23,938 nt of DNA from the IMG/VR virus record IMGVR_UViG_3300009103_000153, positions 1 through 23,938 of that record; one strand, written 5' to 3'. The translations under genes were made by a program, and so were the position numbers. Origin of the DNA: a virus. This document shows, piece by piece, positions 1 to 21,047 of this stretch (within the stretch, counting starts at the first letter, position 1; each line of letters opens with the position of its first letter). The notes beneath the pieces were generated by a model. The model was not told where the DNA came from and did not search any database. It saw only the letters and a list, made by a program, of their open reading frames with translations.

Positions 1-3000
1 TGCTTCCCGCATCTCGTCACGGGTTATATCCCCCAGGGCATACTCGTCATAAGCCGTTGCCCGCGGCGGTGTAACCGCCTCCGCCGCAACCTCACGGGGA
101 GTAGGCGGCGTGACCGCCTCCGCAGCCACCTCACGGGCCGTCGGAGCAGTGGACGGCTCCAACCCTACCAGTTGCCGGTACTCGGCTATCCCCTCATCCG
201 CCAACCGACGGCCAAGAGCAGCAGCCTCGGGAGTCGCCGCATCGTGAAGTTCCTTCGCCCGCTTCTTACCGCCCTTCCTCCACCGCATTTTGTTCTTGGC
301 GCTGGTCTTTACCGGACCTTCGAGAGCGTCGACCACCTCGTCCAGCATCCGCATGTTGTAGACGTAATGGCGAACATCGAGCGCTTGTGTCCGGAGTTCT
401 TCGGGTATACCGGCGTAGTAGCCGGGATCCCAGCGTTCCCCCGTGTGTTCGTACCGTTGTCTCCAAATCGTGGCCTGTTCAAGGGCGTCATCCGATGCCG
501 CGTAAGCCTCGTTGAACGCCCGCAGCATTATCTCCCACGCTTCCTGCGAATCTGCCCGCCATGAGATTCGGGTCTTCCCGTGGAACGTGATGTCAGGATG
601 ATCGGCAGGTATAAGTGCCCGTACCGACTCATCTATTTGCCGCTGGGGTTCCATCCCTGGTTTGTCAACCCACACGAACTCGCCGTCCACAAGTTCGGTA
701 CGACCACTGTAGTTGTATCGAAAGGTCTTACCCGCCGCTGCCGGAGGCGTGACCGCCTCCGCCGCCACCTCACGGGGCGTAGGCGCCGGCACCCCCTCGC
801 CAATCCACTTCCCCAAACTCCCCTTGATCTGCCCGATGCCTACAGGGCCGCCGCGCTTTCCCGATCCCGTGGGCTCGACAATACGAATCTCCCGGCTCAA
901 CATGCCGCGCTGTTGCGCCCTCTCCAACAGATCCTGCATCAATACCCGGTACTTGGCAGAACCGTAAAAGAACAGTTCCTCCGCATCCCCCACAAGATCA
1001 ACAAACTTCTGTAGTTGCTTCGGTCCAGCGACAACTTCCTTAGCGCCCGTCTTGGGCAACTGCACATCGTACGTTTCAACCAACTCAGCCGGATCCAACA
1101 CCCCGTGCTTCGCAGAAATAATGCCACCCAACTCGGCGTCACTACCCTCGATCTGGTGTTTCATAAACTTGAACGTGTCATCCGTGTAAAGATCCTCGGC
1201 AGCGACCGTGGCACCTTCCGCCAACTCGCACTTCTTCTTCGTACACATGGCGAACACCTTGCGGCGTGCCGCAGCACGCCTGGCGGCAACACCAGCGCCC
1301 GCTGCCGGAGGCGGCACATCATCCATCCCCTTCGCCAGATTCTCCGCCTCCCACAAAGCCTCCAACTCCGGATCAACCTCCGGTGCGGTACCACGGATCT
1401 CCGCCATACGATCAGCAGCCGACCTACCCGAACGCTTCGTCGCCTCCGCCTGCGCCACCTCCTTCGCTTCCTTCAAGGTCTTGGGTAATCCACCACCGAC
1501 GCCGACATCAGCCACCGGTACACCATTCACCGAAACAACCCAGCCGTCACGAACCCACTTATCGACCTTCTTGCCGAACTCCTCAACCGTTCGCACGCTG
1601 CCAGTCGGCTCAATCGTCCAAACGTCAATAATGCGTTCGCCATCGACGACCTGCACCGACATCGCAGTCTCCCCAGGCGCCGTCGTGCGCGGTTTGGCTC
1701 CGACATGCTTGCCGGCGTCGGTCCACTCCTTCCACTCCCGGCGACGCAACGCCTGGCGTTTCTTCAACGTCATACCTGTCGCTTCATCAACTGCTTCTTC
1801 AATGCGGTACTTGGTTAGTAGTTCTTCCTCCGACGGGATCGAAAACTTCGCCACCCGCACCGACCGTGAAGCAAACGGCACCTCCTCAGACGGCCCCTTC
1901 GACCACCTCAACGGCTCACCCTCAGCCACCTCAGCGCCACCAGAAACATTCCTCGCCCACACGCCATCCCGCATCGTCGCCTCGACCCGCACAAACGGCG
2001 AATCCTGAGACAACAACACACCGCCAGCCAACGCCTGACGCTGCTGCCACTCAGTCAACACCGTCCCGTAACCATGCCCCCGATCCAAAGCCCCCTCATA
2101 TGCGGCAGACACCTCCTGCCAACTATTCTCCGCCTCCCGCATCCACCGCGGCAGTTTCGCCACATCGATCCCGTTGTAATCCCGATAGATGCTGCCAATA
2201 TCAGGGAACAGACGATCATCGTCGTACACCTGGCGTACATCAAACCCCTCCCCAAGAACAGTCTTCGTCCACGGACCAGGAGGATCAGGGTCCAGCACCT
2301 CCCTGAAAAAGAACACATCCCCCAACCACTCCCGCATCTTCAAATCCTTAGGAAACGCATCCAACAAGCCCTGCTGATCCAACTCGCTCAACGGCGCCTG
2401 CAAAGCATGCAGCATCCGCTTTATGCTTTGCACATCCTTAGACACCTCGGCAAGCGACTTCGCTTCCTTCACCAGGTGCCGCATCTTCGCTTCGACATTG
2501 CCAAACGCTTCAATCAACTCGTCCAACAACTTGTCGTCAACGATCGTTCTCGTCGCCGCAGTCCGCTGCTGCGCCAACATGCTGCTGATCGCCTGCAACT
2601 GTTTCCACCGGTACCCGACCAGCGACGCTTCCTCCAACAAAGGCTTCATAAAGTCGTACAGCGCCTCCCGCGACTTCTGCGCCCTACTGCTCACACCCCG
2701 CATCACCTCCATCAACTGGGCCTGTATGTCAACCAGTTTCGCTTCAAGAATCTCGACCTCAGCGATCCACGCAGCCGTCTGCGTCCCAATCTCAGACGCC
2801 CCCTCCCGCCTCGCAATAGCCATCCGCATCGCCTTCACCTGCTCGACATCCAGGCCACGCTCAATACCCTTGAACACCTCGTCAAACGCGTCCCCCCTAT
2901 TGCCGTAAAGCCCCTTCAATGCGCTATGAGCGGCATCCTTCTGCCCCTTGATCCAAGTCACCGGATCCTTGAACGCAATACCCCCCTCCTCCAACAAGTT

Positions 3001-4872
3001 CATAATCTTCGCTCGACGCACCCCCTCCCCGATCTTGCTCAAATACACATCCATAGACTTCCAGATGTCCTTATCGAACAGTTCACGCGCCCCGTCACCA
3101 AACTCTGTATCCGCTATCGCCCTGATCTGTTCCTCGATCGTGCGCCGCGACGGATCATCCATCTGGTTCACCAACGGGACACCCCTGAACTCGCCGCCAG
3201 GAATCAACCTACGCGGCATCGTCGGGTCATACGCCTGCTCCAACGCCCGACGCATCACCCACAACTCGTCGGCGCTCGCAAACAACCACTGGCTCCCACC
3301 GAACATGTTCGCCCGAACCAGAGCATCATCCATCCACTTGCGGCCCTGATGCCAAAAATCAGACACCGCACTATCACCAACCCGCTTCATCACAGAACCA
3401 AACTTCTGCCGAAACCTCGGATTGATAATAGGTAAACCGTCTTCCAGAACCTGGGCGCCCAACGAATCAGTCAAATAGAACTGTGTTTTGAACATGTCGT
3501 CGACCGTTTCAGGATCCAACCCCAACCGTCGCGCCGTGCGTCGCAGAACCAACGCATCCTTCGACATGAGATCCATGAACCGGTTGCGGGCAGCCCACCC
3601 GGCGTTATTGCTCACCATCACCCGGTTCGCGTCCAGAACCGTCTTGTAGTCCTTGCTACGCAACCCCTGCTTGATGCTCGACTTGTTGTTGAACGACTTG
3701 TCGATCGTTTCCGCAGTCTTCCTATCGAACAGAGCCGCCTTCCCCTTCCCGAACTGTGGGACGACAGTTGTCAACACTTTCCCGGTGAAACCAGGCAACT
3801 TGAATGCTTCGACCGGCATCCTCGACGCCATCCGTGCCGCCGCCGTGTAGAAATCGTCAGGAATGTCACCCAGGTCGACACCCTTGGAGATGTCTTTCAT
3901 CCGGCTAATGATCTTTGCTTCCGCCGCAGCGGCATCCTCCAGCCCTTCACGGCCAAACCTGGCTACAGCCTCAGCAGCATCATCCACAGCCTTCCCTGCG
4001 ACCGGTCGAGCCAGATCCCCGATGTACGGCAACTTCGACGCCTGCCGGGCACGACGAGCCGTCATCCCACCCCTGGTCGCCTTGTCCAACACCTTGTCCA
4101 GACGCACCGCCCGCCCCAAACGCCCCGTCGTCGGAACAAACAACCCCATCTGACCCAGCAGGCCAACCTCCTGCAACGCCTCCCGGCCGGCCGAATGCAT
4201 CGCATTCGACCTGCCGACAGCCGTAACACCGTCCTTCAACACCTTCGACTTGTGAACAGCCTGCGCCTGCGTCACCCCAGCCTTACCGCCAGCCTTAGCG
4301 ATGTCGTCATACCAGGCAGCACCCTTCGACATCACATCTATCAACTTGTTGGCACTCATCCCCGCACGGCCGGCAGCCCCAATACCACCAGTCATATAGG
4401 TGATCGGATCAAACGCGATGTCGAACCCCAACCCCACCACCATGTCCAACGGGCCAGGAAGATCCACCCCCCAATCACGCATCACATCCTGCATGAACAG
4501 ATTGTCCTCAGTCTGCTTCCACCAATCAACAGGCGAAAACCCCTCCCCCGTGAACAGATCCCCGACCTCTTTGATCGTCGACACGATCGCCGCACGCGGC
4601 GTATCGATCAAATCAATGAACTTCCCCAACGGGCCAGCGAACTCGAACGGTCCCGGCTCCGGCTCCGGCGCCTCCGGTATCATCACCGGCTCCGGTCGCG
4701 GCAACAACTGACCCGTCGTCACAGGCGTACGCTGCGGAGCATCTTCCGGACCCTTCACCAGGTCAATCAACGGGCTCCCAACGCCCGTAGTCATATTGGC
4801 GAGAATGTCCTTACGGCTCGGCCGGCCAGGCCCAGTCGTGATATTCGCCAGAATATCTTCGCGGGACGGCAC
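1..4872 (-). CDS. Giant multi-domain virion/ejection-type protein, C-terminus beyond window
   Basis: An uninterrupted frame of 1624 codons runs from a GTG at 4872 to base 1, with no stop before the window edge. The start is 2 nt past the stop of the 712-aa gene, behind a G-rich stretch. Residues 3-34 hold two copies of a 16-residue unit (SREDILANITTG / SRKDILANMTTG). A Pro/Glu linker follows at about 45-75, then a hydrophobic stretch near 140-165 (GLGFDIAFDPITYMTGG). The middle is long, helical-looking and charged, with coiled-coil-like segments at about 695-830. Residues about 1203-1360 resemble the DUF6884/YaaA-like fold (see separate entry). Three 13-residue TPREVAAEAVTPP linkers bracket another module at about 1375-1575. 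By position after the fibre genes and by size I infer an internal virion protein ejected into the host, similar in organisation to 'polyvalent' proteins. I see no T7-type RNA polymerase, lytic transglycosylase or protease motif. That it is one gene is certain; the overall function is inferred. Confidence 0.85.
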   Translation of the reverse strand, partial: MPSREDILANITTGPGRPSRKDILANMTTGVGSPLIDLVKGPEDAPQRTPVTTGQLLPRPEPVMIPEAPEPEPGPFEFAGPLGKFIDLIDTPRAAIVSTIKEVGDLFTGEGFSPVDWWKQTEDNLFMQDVMRDWGVDLPGPLDMVVGLGFDIAFDPITYMTGGIGAAGRAGMSANKLIDVMSKGAAWYDDIAKAGGKAGVTQAQAVHKSKVLKDGVTAVGRSNAMHSAGREALQEVGLLGQMGLFVPTTGRLGRAVRLDKVLDKATRGGMTARRARQASKLPYIGDLARPVAGKAVDDAAEAVARFGREGLEDAAAAEAKIISRMKDISKGVDLGDIPDDFYTAAARMASRMPVEAFKLPGFTGKVLTTVVPQFGKGKAALFDRKTAETIDKSFNNKSSIKQGLRSKDYKTVLDANRVMVSNNAGWAARNRFMDLMSKDALVLRRTARRLGLDPETVDDMFKTQFYLTDSLGAQVLEDGLPIINPRFRQKFGSVMKRVGDSAVSDFWHQGRKWMDDALVRANMFGGSQWLFASADELWVMRRALEQAYDPTMPRRLIPGGEFRGVPLVNQMDDPSRRTIEEQIRAIADTEFGDGARELFDKDIWKSMDVYLSKIGEGVRRAKIMNLLEEGGIAFKDPVTWIKGQKDAAHSALKGLYGNRGDAFDEVFKGIERGLDVEQVKAMRMAIARREGASEIGTQTAAWIAEVEILEAKLVDIQAQLMEVMRGVSSRAQKSREALYDFMKPLLEEASLVGYRWKQLQAISSMLAQQRTAATRTIVDDKLLDELIEAFGNVEAKMRHLVKEAKSLAEVSKDVQSIKRMLHALQAPLSELDQQGLLDAFPKDLKMREWLGDVFFFREVLDPDPPGPWTKTVLGEGFDVRQVYDDDRLFPDIGSIYRDYNGIDVAKLPRWMREAENSWQEVSAAYEGALDRGHGYGTVLTEWQQRQALAGGVLLSQDSPFVRVEATMRDGVWARNVSGGAEVAEGEPLRWSKGPSEEVPFASRSVRVAKFSIPSEEELLTKYRIEEAVDEATGMTLKKRQALRRREWKEWTDAGKHVGAKPRTTAPGETAMSVQVVDGERIIDVWTIEPTGSVRTVEEFGKKVDKWVRDGWVVSVNGVPVADVGVGGGLPKTLKEAKEVAQAEATKRSGRSAADRMAEIRGTAPEVDPELEALWEAENLAKGMDDVPPPAAGAGVAARRAAARRKVFAMCTKKKCELAEGATVAAEDLYTDDTFKFMKHQIEGSDAELGGIISAKHGVLDPAELVETYDVQLPKTGAKEVVAGPKQLQKFVDLVGDAEELFFYGSAKYRVLMQDLLERAQQRGMLSREIRIVEPTGSGKRGGPVGIGQIKGSLGKWIGEGVPAPTPREVAAEAVTPPAAAGKTFRYNYSGRTELVDGEFVWVDKPGMEPQRQIDESVRALIPADHPDITFHGKTRISWRADSQEAWEIMLRAFNEAYAASDDALEQATIWRQRYEHTGERWDPGYYAGIPEELRTQALDVRHYVYNMRMLDEVVDALEGPVKTSAKNKMRWRKGGKKRAKELHDAATPEAAALGRRLADEGIAEYRQLVGLEPSTAPTAREVAAEAVTPPTPREVAAEAVTPPRATAYDEYALGDITRDEMREA
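68..144 (-). repeat. Two tandem copies of a 39-nt (13-residue) linker repeat
   Basis: Two adjacent 39-nt units (68-106 and 107-145, about 80-90% alike) encode T-P/A-R-E-V-A-A-E-A-V-T-P-P within the giant gene. A third copy lies at 746-783. The unit is in frame and low in complexity, so it most likely forms an Ala/Glu/Pro linker between domains. The copies bracket a module of about 200 residues. Confidence 0.8.
746..783 (-). repeat. Third copy of the 13-residue linker repeat
   Basis: This unit encodes T-P-R-E-V-A-A-E-A-V-T-P-P. At DNA level it is nearly identical to the copies at 68-145, sharing the plus-strand core gaccgcctccgc followed by cacctcacggg. It lies just after the DUF6884-like domain and just before the distal module of the giant protein. 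Confidence 0.8.
795..1266 (-). other. Embedded DUF6884/YaaA-like domain within the giant protein
   Basis: Residues about 1203-1360 of the giant protein read like a free-standing small-enzyme family. There is a hydrophobic strand followed by C1210-T-K-K-K, then AAEDLY (Y1229) with FKFMKHQ, then GGIISAKHG (S1253 to G1257) VLDP, then a YDVQLP segment. A helical part follows and ends in GSGKRGGPVGIGQIKG. The order 'Cys-Lys-Lys, A-x-DLY, SAKHG-x-x-xP, YD-x-x-L' is what I recall for DUF6884-type proteins, related to the YaaA fold and common in actinobacteria, archaea and phages as separate proteins. Their biochemical role is poorly defined. The assignment is from memory of motifs and was not computed. 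Here the domain is fused in the middle of a probable virion protein. Confidence 0.6.
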
Positions 4873-4874
4873 CC

Positions 4875-7013
4875 CTACCCCCGTGCCTCGTACTCCTGCG
4901 ACGCCTCAACATCTCCCCAACCGGAAATCGGCATAGGCACCATCTGCCCGTTGATGTTCACCGGATAGAACCCCACCGGAGCGTTCTGAGTCTCAGCGAT
5001 CTGCGCCTTCAACATAATCTCAGGATCCACAAAGTAAGTCTCGCTGCCACCCGTAGGCGTCCACGGCATCATGTTCTCGTACTCGTTGGCTTCCGCCTCA
5101 CCCATCAAATCGCCGTACAAGTCACCCAACAAACCGCCAGCCGCCATCGCCTCAGCCGTACCCGGCGTCAAACCCATCTGCATATCGATCGTCGCAAACT
5201 GGGCTGACTCCGCAGCCTGAGCCTGAGCAGCCTTCGCCTCAGCCTCCGCCTGCGCCTGGGCAGCCTCCGCCCTCGAAATCCGCCCCGACGCCTCCGCCTC
5301 ATTGATACGCGACATCTCTGCGTCATACGTCTGCTGCGCCCCATAGACGCCGGCACGCTGCGCCTGACCCGCACCGAACGCCCCCGTACGGGCCGCCTCA
5401 GAACCCTGGAACCGGCCAGCAGCAATCTGCTCGCCGGTATCGTACATCCCCGTCCTGTACGCCTGATTGGCTCCAAAGCGCCCCTGAGCGATCTCGTTCG
5501 CCAAGGCATGCTGCGACCCCAACTCGCCCGTATTGATGCCACCCAACGCCTGCATGTTCTGCAAACCCAGGCCCGTGCGCCGACCAGCAATATCCTCCGC
5601 AAGGTTCGCACGGCCACTAAACAACTCATCCGCCAAAGCAGCACGGGCATCCTGGAACAACCCCGTCGCCCCCAACGAACGATCCGTAGCCTCTGACGCC
5701 GCAATCGACGCCAACCTGCCCTGCAGATCCTGCGACGAAAGAGCCTGCGACCCCAACAGCCCCGCAGTTTCCGCACCAACCGCCGTCGTATACGCCTCCG
5801 GACTAATGCCCTGCTCCCGCAGGGCAGCCTCCGCATCCAACCGGCGCTTATCCAAACCACCCTGAGCGCCCGTATAACGACCGCTCATAGCCTCCATCAT
5901 CGCCTGCTCCTGGGCCAGACGCTCCCCTTCCAAAGTCTCCATCTGGCTCAACAACTGCGCCTCGTAGTCATCCAACCTTGCGCCACGTTGAGTTTCCAAC
6001 TGGTCATACACGCCGCCCCGACGCGCCTGCTCAGCGTTCAACGCATCGATCATGTGCTGGTACTGCTGGTTGACGTTCCCCCGACGCATATTCGCCATGT
6101 CCAGAATCTGCTGCTGTTCACGGCCCTCCCGACCCGTCAGATATTCAAGGGCGTCGTCCCGCGTCCCACCGAAATAGTCTTCCGCAGCGGTAGCACGATC
6201 GTCGTAATAGCCGCCTGACAGATCGGCGCCCGTATCGTAGAAAGCGGTTGTCTCGTCGCCTTCTGTAGTGAAATAGTCCTCCGACGTATCAAACGCCGTT
6301 TCAGCGTCCTCTCGCAGATCGGCGTACATGTCGGTGTACGCGTCTTCGATGGGGACACCCAATGTCGAAATCGGAGCAGCGGGAGCAGGAGCCGGGGCAG
6401 CAGGAGTCGTGATCCCTAGAAAGTTCTGAGCATCAGACGTACCAAGCCAGTCGAGAACCTCCTGATCCGTCGGACCTGGAGGACCACCCATAGCACCTGG
6501 CGTACCAAACGTCGGAGCATTCTGCGCCTTTTCATACGCCGGCGTCGGCGCACCCGTAACCGGATCGGCATAAACCTCTGCCGCCCTGGCATACCTCGCT
6601 GCCTCCAACACCCCCGGTGCAGGACGATCTACAGCAGGCGCCATCCACGCTCTTTCATACCTGGCGGCTGCCAAAGCGCCAGGATCGGGACGGGACGCAA
6701 CGGGCGTCGGGCCGCCATGTCTGGCGGCTAACGCCTCCCTTGCCGGTGTCGAAGCGGCCTGCGTAGCCGCCCGCGCCGCTGGATGCACATTACCCAACGG
6801 GTGACCACCCCTGGGTGCCTGACCAAACGACGGCGCTTGACTACGAGCCGCCGCCGCAGGATGCACCCTCGCAGGCGACGGCCGATTCGCGCCACCCATC
6901 GTCGATGGCGGCCCCCCACCAGTTGTCGCAGCATTCGTCACAATGCCGCTTGGCGAACGTATCGACAAACTCTGTCCTGCGGATCTACGCCGTATAGCGT
7001 CAGGTCGACCCAT
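4875..7013 (-). CDS. 712-aa Ala/Gln/Glu-rich repetitive protein, probable internal virion (ejection) protein
   Basis: The ATG at 7013 overlaps the preceding stop (TAATG). Residues 1-215 are disordered-looking, rich in Ala/Pro/Gly, with a duplicated AARYERA/AARYARA unit (116-145). A WLGTSDAQNFL motif sits at 189-199. Residues 225-295 are acidic and aromatic (EDYF, YYDD, EDYFGG). Residues 295-610 are long amphipathic helix with Gln/Glu/Ala/Arg heptad character and imperfect repeats RTGMY, RTGAF and RAGVY at 520-556. The last 100 residues are acidic, with a hydrophobic Gly/Leu stretch (GGLLGDLYGDLMG). No enzymatic motif is visible. Its place between the fibre genes and the giant ORF, and the long helical repeats, fit a podovirus internal-core or ejection protein. 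That role is inferred, not shown by a recognised domain. Confidence 0.85.
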   Translation of the reverse strand: MGRPDAIRRRSAGQSLSIRSPSGIVTNAATTGGGPPSTMGGANRPSPARVHPAAAARSQAPSFGQAPRGGHPLGNVHPAARAATQAASTPAREALAARHGGPTPVASRPDPGALAAARYERAWMAPAVDRPAPGVLEAARYARAAEVYADPVTGAPTPAYEKAQNAPTFGTPGAMGGPPGPTDQEVLDWLGTSDAQNFLGITTPAAPAPAPAAPISTLGVPIEDAYTDMYADLREDAETAFDTSEDYFTTEGDETTAFYDTGADLSGGYYDDRATAAEDYFGGTRDDALEYLTGREGREQQQILDMANMRRGNVNQQYQHMIDALNAEQARRGGVYDQLETQRGARLDDYEAQLLSQMETLEGERLAQEQAMMEAMSGRYTGAQGGLDKRRLDAEAALREQGISPEAYTTAVGAETAGLLGSQALSSQDLQGRLASIAASEATDRSLGATGLFQDARAALADELFSGRANLAEDIAGRRTGLGLQNMQALGGINTGELGSQHALANEIAQGRFGANQAYRTGMYDTGEQIAAGRFQGSEAARTGAFGAGQAQRAGVYGAQQTYDAEMSRINEAEASGRISRAEAAQAQAEAEAKAAQAQAAESAQFATIDMQMGLTPGTAEAMAAGGLLGDLYGDLMGEAEANEYENMMPWTPTGGSETYFVDPEIMLKAQIAETQNAPVGFYPVNINGQMVPMPISGWGDVEASQEYEARG

Positions 7014-7519
7014 TACGCACCTCTGATCCGTGCAGCCATCACAGCCCGACGCGACGCATCATCCATCACGCCACCCAAACGCTGCCCAGCGTACGCCTGC
7101 TCCGCCTCCCACTGTTGAGCAGCCAACTGATCCAACGCACCCTGCACACCCATCTCGTAGCGGCCAGCCTCACGCAACTCATCCGTATACGTCCGACCCA
7201 ACCCCCGCTGAAACTGGCCCGAATCCAACATGCCGCGCCGATTGAACTGACCAGGGATCTGCCGACGCAGATCCCCAAACCGGCGACTCATGTCATCCAA
7301 ACCCATCGCCCGCTGCCGGCCATACCCCTCACGCTGATGCTGCAACCCCGACAAACGGCGACGCAGATCACGGCCACTCTTGGCAACCGACGCATACTTC
7401 GGAACATTCCCCAACGGGGACGGCGAAATAGCGCCAGCAGCGCGACCCTGGACGCCAGCCGGCGTCAAAGGCCCAACCAACTCCTTAGAGCGGTTCGTGA
7501 CGTTGAAGTCAATCGCCAC
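7013..7519 (-). CDS. 168-aa Arg/Gln-rich protein, probable minor virion protein
   Basis: The start is a GTG at 7519, 7 nt after the preceding stop codon, with no clear Shine-Dalgarno, so translation is probably coupled to the upstream gene. The protein is basic in its middle (SGRDLRRRLSGLQ, MSRRFGDLRRQIPGQF), with a motif RRGMLDSGQFQRGLGR followed by a helical Gln/Ala/Glu segment ending in SRRAVMAARIRGA. The 'RGMLDSG' type of sequence turns up in small virion and ejection-associated proteins of other phages. That is a loose resemblance rather than a family assignment. Together with the flanking 211-aa and 712-aa proteins it forms a set that I infer sits inside the particle. There are no membrane segments. 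Confidence 0.75.
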   Translation of the reverse strand: MAIDFNVTNRSKELVGPLTPAGVQGRAAGAISPSPLGNVPKYASVAKSGRDLRRRLSGLQHQREGYGRQRAMGLDDMSRRFGDLRRQIPGQFNRRGMLDSGQFQRGLGRTYTDELREAGRYEMGVQGALDQLAAQQWEAEQAYAGQRLGGVMDDASRRAVMAARIRGA

Positions 7520-19488: not shown

Positions 19489-20163
19489 TCATCGTGTCCC
19501 ACGGACAGAGTGCTGACCGATCCGAAACGGGTCTTCCGACGTATCCTCATTCAACGCCAGGCGCTTCCACCAATCGATCGTCCAGTAATCGTCGGCCTTC
19601 TCGACGTACTCGGGGGCATACGCAAACTTTCGCATCTGATTCGCCAACGCCAACGCCATCACCCGGTCGTCGAACGGCGAACCCGACATCGAACCCTTCT
19701 CGTTGCGGGTAAAAGTCCGCAACTCCGCCAAAGTGTTCCGGTCCCTCAACCCCAACTCCTCGTTCTTCAACGCAGTCGCCAAATCATCGATCATCAACGG
19801 CTTCGACGTACGCGTCGTCTTCCAACCGTACTCCTGAGTCACCCGATTCGACACGTTGTTCAATGTCCGCTTCCGAAACAGACGAGGATACCCCAACTGG
19901 CGCAACACCGTGATCGTCGTCAAACCGTGATTGTTCGACTCGACACAACACAACGCATCCCGATACCACAACCCGATGTTGAAAACCTCAGCCGCCAACT
20001 CATCGGGAGCGATATGTCCGTGCCAAATCGCAACCTGCTCCCCTGTATTCAAATCCAACACCTGAACACACGAATAGTCGCCGTGACCCAACCCCTCAGC
20101 CGTGTCAACACCCATCACATACCCATGCGTCGAATCAGGCGGCGACCAAACTTCAAGATTCAC
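19489..20163 (-). CDS. terL: Terminase large subunit, nuclease part (224 aa, split ORF)
   Basis: This is the C-terminal, RNase H-like nuclease half of a large terminase. It has the first acidic motif GYVMGVDTAEGLGHGDYS (D20), the second ALCCVESNNHG (E75), and the third GSPFDDRVMALALA (D165/D166), the usual three metal-binding positions. It starts with a GTG at 20163 in a GTGA overlap with the stop of the ATPase ORF. There is no good Shine-Dalgarno, so it would be made by coupled re-initiation unless the split is an artefact. Its frame is closed by a TAG two codons before the GTG. A single missing base at the junction would fuse the halves into a normal protein of about 520 residues. It cuts the phage concatemer during packaging. 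Confidence 0.88.
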   Translation of the reverse strand: MNLEVWSPPDSTHGYVMGVDTAEGLGHGDYSCVQVLDLNTGEQVAIWHGHIAPDELAAEVFNIGLWYRDALCCVESNNHGLTTITVLRQLGYPRLFRKRTLNNVSNRVTQEYGWKTTRTSKPLMIDDLATALKNEELGLRDRNTLAELRTFTRNEKGSMSGSPFDDRVMALALANQMRKFAYAPEYVEKADDYWTIDWWKRLALNEDTSEDPFRIGQHSVRGTR

Positions 20164-21047
20164 GTTCTAAACTCCACAACCTTCGGCATCACAGAATGCA
20201 GATACCCGACCTGGCCTCGCCGGCAACCCGCCGCCAAAGCATCCAAGACATCCAAATCGAACACCGGGTTACCAGACCGGACAAACGCTTCCTCCGGTGT
20301 CGTCGGGTACTCCTGGGCCAACTGCCACGGCAACATCGACTGACGCTTTTCCTCATACCACGACTCGTCCCGATCCTCAGTCGCAGACCACGGAAAAAAC
20401 ATCGGAGCAAACTTGTTGTTCGACGCCGAAGCACCAACCCACAGATTATGAAAAAAGTTGCCGGAACCATTCGCAGTCGACAAGCCAATGATACGACCGC
20501 CCACATCCGCAACCGGCTCAATGGACGCCCACGCTTCCTCAGGGTTCGGCAAAAACGCCCACTCATCGACAACGATCAGCGTGGCGGACTCGCCACGCGC
20601 AGGATCCGAAGCCGACGGCATCGACGTAATCTGTGACCCGTTGTCGAAAAGCATACGCTGCTGATGCTCGACCAGAGACTTCGGGCCACGCTCCACCATC
20701 CACACCGGCAGATGCGAAAACCCGTACTTCGTCTTCCGCAGCAACAGCACCGCCTCACGCTCCGTACGAGACAGATCGATAATGTTCTGGTCAGGCTGAA
20801 AAAACGCCAACCAGAACTGGTGCGCCGCCACCAAAGTCGTCCACCCAATCTGGCGAGCCTTGAGCGTCAGGGAATAACGGTTCTCACCCCAATGATCCAA
20901 AGCAAACTTCTGAGCAGCCCTCAGATCAAACAGGATCCTGCCGTAAGCAGGATGGGCGATGTTCCAATACTTTCGCAGAAAGTACGACTCATCCCTCACG
21001 CAGCGGCGCCACTCCGCCTCCTGGCGGAGTTCCGTCAACCGCGACAC
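20160..21047 (-). CDS. terL: Terminase large subunit, ATPase part (295 aa, split ORF)
   Basis: The translation shows the packaging ATPase motifs: adenine-side FALDHWGENRYSL, Walker A-type KARQIGWT (63-70), Walker B TLIVVDEWAF with D161/E162, coupling motif GLSTANGSGN (188-197), and the lid-end signature LAQEYPTTPEEAFVRSG (243-259). It stops at 20160, just where the linker to the nuclease domain would start, and the nuclease follows in the next frame. It starts directly after the stop of the 88-aa gene. It drives DNA into the procapsid through the portal. ATPase identity is certain; whether the split is natural is discussed in the findings. Confidence 0.92.
   Translation of the reverse strand: MSRLTELRQEAEWRRCVRDESYFLRKYWNIAHPAYGRILFDLRAAQKFALDHWGENRYSLTLKARQIGWTTLVAAHQFWLAFFQPDQNIIDLSRTEREAVLLLRKTKYGFSHLPVWMVERGPKSLVEHQQRMLFDNGSQITSMPSASDPARGESATLIVVDEWAFLPNPEEAWASIEPVADVGGRIIGLSTANGSGNFFHNLWVGASASNNKFAPMFFPWSATEDRDESWYEEKRQSMLPWQLAQEYPTTPEEAFVRSGNPVFDLDVLDALAAGCRRGQVGYLHSVMPKVVEFRT

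Follow-up and report, generated by a model that had tools for sequence, protein, structure and literature searches.

The stretch of viral DNA analysed here – 23,938 nucleotides, positions 1 to 23,938 of the IMG/VR record IMGVR_UViG_3300009103_000153, referred to below as the window – opens within a giant phage gene whose full product has 2430 amino acids. The favoured reading, with a probability of about 0.68, is that this is the large gene of an ejection-type trio, with a product that has structural ends and a middle made of swappable effector modules, among them a DUF6884 domain, that would be injected into the host and recombined partly through short repeated joints.

The preliminary description placed a single frame from position 4872 off the left edge of the window, and the complete gene is found in L002 (contigs of relatives are designated by L numbers; this one is IMGVR_UViG_3300009104_000063), which is 99.984% identical to the window over 12,131 nucleotides. 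There the gene has 2430 codons (L002:7260–14552), and the C-terminus missing from the window is recovered. Related long contigs measure 37–38 kb, so that the giant gene takes up about one-fifth of such a genome. The frame and its DUF6884 domain are kept in relatives at 76–91% identity. The hydrophobic N-terminal segment noted earlier turned out to be moderately hydrophobic (a peak of 1.21 over 19 residues at 136–154), with no clear transmembrane helix. As to the coiled coils also noted, residues ca. 720–850 gave helical, low-scoring Pfam matches. In L007 the frame is interrupted (L007:8001–9692), probably by an assembly gap or error.

Searched with a profile of the protein's last 438 residues, IMG/VR yielded 172 loci that encode the C-terminal domain, and the proteins form a large, mostly unannotated phage family whose complete members range from ca. 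1100 to 2866 amino acids. Eighty of the 172 loci were fetched; counts of neighbouring genes and of DUF6884 refer to 66 proteins, and comparisons of the C-terminal domain to 39 sequences. Both ends of the protein are conserved. The N-terminal motifs DLIDTPRA..VSTIKEVGDLF and GLGFDIAFDPITY are retained in relatives with as little as ca. 30% identity, across the family the N-terminal part shows DLIDTPRA..VSTIKEVGDLF and the pattern G-DIA-DP-TY, and the C-terminal region has the motifs TPGF--RN--GG and HFDY-DLT--ER----IPFWTW.

Between these ends, from residue ca. 1170 to the C region, the proteins of the window's clade consist of successive modules with the peptide AEAVTPP between them. The phage of the window has three: DUF6884, a module of 194 amino acids and a short module (Table 1). 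The middle of L003 contains DUF6884 and other modules, and that of L004 has different modules and no DUF6884. The N parts of these two genes are 95.7–96.2% identical in nucleotide sequence and their last 624 residues 98.9%, while the alignable stretches of their middles are almost the joints alone; the middle was therefore exchanged recently, and the ends were kept. Assembly error is an unlikely source of these swaps, given that no exact repeat in the gene exceeds 24 nucleotides and that independent assemblies agree on module order. Among L002, L003, L054 and L006, DUF6884 follows the tree of the ends and is therefore mostly inherited within the clade; in L004 it was lost or replaced. Within the variable region that the conserved ends flank, DUF6884 is thus a cassette that can be present or absent.

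The domain itself is well supported. PF21818 (DUF6884) scored 42.6 bits (curated cut-off 30) over residues 1210–1319, and both signature motifs are present, CxxxK as CTKKK and LSAxxG as ISAKHG. The embedded domain suggested earlier is thus borne out, as is the order of its motifs (C1210-TKKK, AAEDLY, ISAKHG, VLDP, YDVQL). The same profile was above its cut-off in the copies of L003, L006 and L049, and by a DUF6884 profile 7 of the 66 proteins have the domain. A structural model of the module matched entries of a viral fold library, among them KS14 gp8 (E 2.9e-6) and a protein labelled YaaA (E 1.7e-3). The latter match agrees with the proposed YaaA-like relation, which has been published for DUF6884; the module may have the YaaA-like 'cantaloupe' fold. 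The same library holds a piece of more than 1100 residues from an uncultured phage (A0A6J5NPY6) that matches the model at E 1.6e-3; this is perhaps another giant protein with DUF6884.

The published functions of related proteins concern DNA bases. DUF6884 has been assigned to dpdC (PMC11888242), whose product hydrolyses 7-cyano-7-deazaguanine in DNA (PMC12839542, a paper that files DpdC under DUF328), and Bacillus subtilis YfjM is among the reported interactors of abasic and ribonucleotide lesions (PMC11701544). The module here is probably a DNA-base-acting domain, and given these roles a part in protecting DNA as it enters, or in altering it, is plausible. It shares with YfjM and DpdC the CxxxK and SAxxG motifs and a score above the cut-off, but it is embedded in a protein of 2430 amino acids, whereas those proteins are free-standing or part of a Dpd island. 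Among the window genes scanned, none was recognised as a dpd gene.

Other members carry other enzyme-like modules. L049 has a GNAT acetyltransferase module adjoining DUF6884 (L049:6364–6813; 26.0 bits, cut-off 23.6), and L050 a module resembling ART-PolyVal, an ADP-ribosyltransferase-type (ART) domain (L050:1036–1920; Pfam 18.8 bits, below the cut-off of 31.2). These two contigs belong to a neighbouring lineage without AEAVTPP joints. Three further modules are ADP-ribosyltransferase-like by motifs read by eye (L006:12154–12738, L054:6247–6966 and L027:12449–14602). Single polypeptides can thus hold several conflict-type domains: DUF6884 with unmatched modules in the window and DUF6884 with GNAT in L049, besides the below-cut-off module of L050. 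A module of L004 (L004:10180–10578) with CWQCSWG and HAWIE motifs has no family match and is possibly a cysteine enzyme.

The protein could instead be a purely structural ejection protein whose middle modules are neutral insertions, tolerated but doing nothing in the cell. Many members have only ca. 1640 amino acids, with little room for extra modules, and L004 has lost DUF6884. Against this, CxxxK is kept in all aligned DUF6884 copies and SAKHG in all except L049 (LSGRYG), with 71–88% identity in the clade. Enzyme families known from conflict systems have also been acquired repeatedly, and neutral insertion is judged improbable.

The joints are conserved as DNA as well as peptide. AEAVTPP is encoded by an almost invariant core, GCGGAGGCGGTYACRCC, in 31 of 31 copies from nine contigs, with the codons of AEAVTP being GCG GAG GCG GTY ACR in every copy. 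The valine codon is never GTG, which makes up half of the valine codons of the gene. The core pairs as an inverted repeat with the proline codons that follow. Its left arm (GCGGAGGCGGT) occurred in all 31 copies, compared to a mean of 5.4 and a maximum of 15 of 31 in 2000 synonymous-codon draws from the gene's own usage, and its right arm (CGCCTCCG) in 21 of 31, compared to 4.3 drawn; the codon for T is linked to that for the first P, ACA being paired with CCG in every case (Fisher p 0.0004). Because the copies were chosen by peptide and are related by descent, these figures are not tests on independent samples. At conserved A, E, V, T and P positions of the C domain of the same phages, ca. 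68–84% of codons are shared across the main lineages. In L002 the third joint sits within a full inverted repeat, CGGAGGCGGT-TAC-ACCGCCTCCG, and one residue just past the core differs between the window (TPPR) and L002 (TPPP).

In the phage contigs scanned, the core is confined to the giant gene and to one strand. A scan of IMG/VR for it found 15 stretches, 11 of them in the window's clade; matches to the joint pattern outside the clade were in L116, L119, L121 and L125, and no AEAVTPP context was recognised in L116, the sole one of these that was read. Two other functions found little favour. An RNA hairpin is not convincing (mean z −1.0, with −0.46 in control stretches), because the amino acids alone give GC-rich hairpins. 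The core holds GGAGG, as an internal start site might, with no start codon at ribosome distance in the joint sequences viewed, which were not scanned systematically. A search of the window against Rfam gave no match. The joints would fit a recombination site, a likeness kept by gene conversion, or a translational or RNA signal, the last with weak support from RNA folding. A bolder proposal, and a doubtful one, is that they act as a specialised DNA element – an inverted repeat kept in frame, CGGAGGCG N4 or N7 CGCCTCCG – for inserting, losing and exchanging effector cassettes, by which the cargo of a constant delivery protein would be reloaded through recombination inside the gene.

The modelled fold of the C-terminal domain suggests a polyvalent protein. 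An AlphaFold2 model built from the 39 sequences matched, at E 2.2e-15, 2.0e-14 and 1.0e-12, viral proteins that bear the name 'Large polyvalent protein associated domain-containing', a protein named for the large polyvalent protein associated domain (LPD) LPD38 at E 5.9e-3, and the protein of phage Shocker, itself a family member, at E 2.6e-7; the LPD names describe whole proteins, and are therefore no proof that the matched part is the named domain. The polyvalent type proposed in the preliminary description gains support from this fold match. An alternative is a tail or host-specificity protein on the particle, with a variable middle that binds receptors and changes with host range: 15 of the 39 C-terminal domains match phrog_19395 ('tail fiber protein; host specificity'), and receptor-binding proteins typically vary between ends that are conserved. 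Yet the modules are enzyme-like (DUF6884, GNAT, ART-like) rather than beta-rich binding domains, fibre-like genes occur elsewhere (a collagen-like one at L026:2943–6938), and the fold matches are to polyvalent proteins. A tail protein is quite unlikely.

The position of the gene is that of an ejection protein. It lies among virion genes, with a portal and an adaptor on the same strand (85.7 and 79.6 bits to the SU10 families) and an amidase gene directly after it; the SU10-like portal and adaptor make a short-tailed phage most likely. It is the last of three genes in size order, encoding 168, 712 and 2430 amino acids and resembling gp14, gp15 and gp16, and this small–medium–large order is that of published ejection-protein operons of short-tailed phages (PMC8954989). 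The amidase gene, which in L002 overlaps the giant gene by 4 nucleotides and encodes an N-acetylmuramoyl-L-alanine amidase with a peptidoglycan-binding domain (an endolysin), directly follows in 60 of the 66 members (58 recognised by pattern, and L099 and L101 by eye). In the related Microbacterium and Cellulosimicrobium phages, peptidase endolysins occupy this position.

If the ejection reading is right, the giant protein would be packaged in the capsid together with its two partners, held there by its N-terminal ca. 1170 and C-terminal ca. 620 residues. It would leave with the DNA, its ends helping to form the delivery path as T7 gp16 does, and the middle modules, which differ between phages, would enter the cell. 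DUF6884 may then act on phage or host DNA as infection starts. Recombination would bring in and replace modules, in part at least via the short joints.

Several results weigh against this reading. Pfam LPD38 matched none of the 39 C-terminal domains by sequence, and searches of solved structures with the sequences of this domain and of DUF6884 found none, one chance hit apart. Both models are of medium confidence, with a predicted local distance difference test score (pLDDT) of 68 for the C-terminal domain and 70 for DUF6884, and the DUF6884 model had no significant match among solved structures (PDB). The ART modules consist of one below-cut-off match and motifs seen by eye. No virion proteomics for the family turned up in the literature searched, and gene position alone would also fit a non-virion late protein. 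The protein might stay in the producing cell, uninjected, and act for example on DNA in packaging or on competing phage; the DUF6884 proteins YfjM and DpdC do act inside cells. The constant ejection-protein position, the polyvalent-type C-terminal domain and the size-graded trio argue against such a cytoplasmic role, which is very unlikely.

Several known systems come close. The giant protein resembles the polyvalent proteins with LPD domains (Iyer et al. 2017, PMC5512222) in being a very large product of a late phage locus, with several enzyme-type domains across its family (GNAT above the cut-off, ART-like) and a C-terminal fold match to LPD proteins. It differs in that no metallopeptidase was found, the C-terminal domain is not reached by Pfam LPD38, and repeated DNA joints separate the modules. 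LPD38 also had no match in the contigs of four relatives, and control genomes gave none either; a word search of the 2017 paper for 'YaaA' found no occurrence. As with gp16 of T7 and P22 (PMC8954989), the protein is the largest of a small–medium–large set, is variable in size and belongs to a short-tailed phage, but no sequence similarity to them was found (no gp16-type match in Pfam or PHROG), there is no lysozyme domain, and effector modules occupy the middle. The N4 virion RNA polymerase is likewise a giant, multi-domain injected protein, as this one would be. No RNA polymerase domain was recognised here, though the C-terminal domain has a weak fold match to a Vibrio phage virion RNA polymerase (E 0.12). 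Polymorphic toxin cassettes share the constant carrier with exchanged effector parts, but here the modules are mid-protein between conserved ends and joined by repeats, and no immunity genes were seen.

With at least 172 IMG/VR loci and members in cultured actinobacterial phages, the family is a carrier whose variable part directly shows which effectors are candidates for injection, and it can serve as a catalogue in the search for new domains of host takeover or counter-defence. It places DUF6884, a probably base-acting relative of DpdC, in a DNA-entry setting. If the joints are indeed recombination sites, they would be a natural system for in-frame swapping of protein modules.

Table 1. Coordinates in the window of the giant gene, its modules and joints, and its upstream neighbours.
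Feature	Position	Strand	Remarks
Giant polyvalent-type gene, 5' 1624 codons	1..4872	(-)	GTG start; open to left edge
Conserved N-terminal region, residues 1-1172	1357..4872	(-)	Motifs kept in relatives
DUF6884 module, residues 1198-1363	784..1281	(-)	Pfam PF21818, family profile, alignment
CTKKK (CxxxK motif), residues 1210-1214	1231..1245	(-)	
SAKHG (LSAxxG motif), residues 1253-1257	1102..1116	(-)	
Joint 1, GCGGAGGCGGTCACGCC	746..762	(-)	Encodes AEAVTP
Module 2, 194 amino acids, residues 1381-1574	151..732	(-)	Matches no family; found in this phage alone
Joint 2, GCGGAGGCGGTCACGCC	107..123	(-)	
Joint 3, GCGGAGGCGGTTACACC	68..84	(-)	
Start of short shared module, YDEYALGDITRDEMREA	1..57	(-)	Also in L006, L054
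712-amino-acid gene directly upstream of giant gene	4875..7013	(-)	Position and size like T7 gp15-type ejection protein; no family match
168-amino-acid gene	7013..7519	(-)	Position like gp14; RRGMLDSG-type motif kept in distant relatives

Microbacterium phage Shocker (gp37) and Cellulosimicrobium phage DS1 encode relatives of the giant protein, as do two metagenomic podoviruses, one of which has whiB genes. A phage-like contig of the family (L126, NHIM01000009.1) was binned in an Acidimicrobiaceae genome (TMED189). From this bin and the phages just named, the host is probably an actinobacterium. The large terminase of the window is encoded by two overlapping open reading frames of 295 and 224 amino acids (19489–21047, minus strand). 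This split is kept in the contigs of five other relatives, at ca. 80% and 65–80% identity, and the distant relative G006 has one frame of 537 amino acids.
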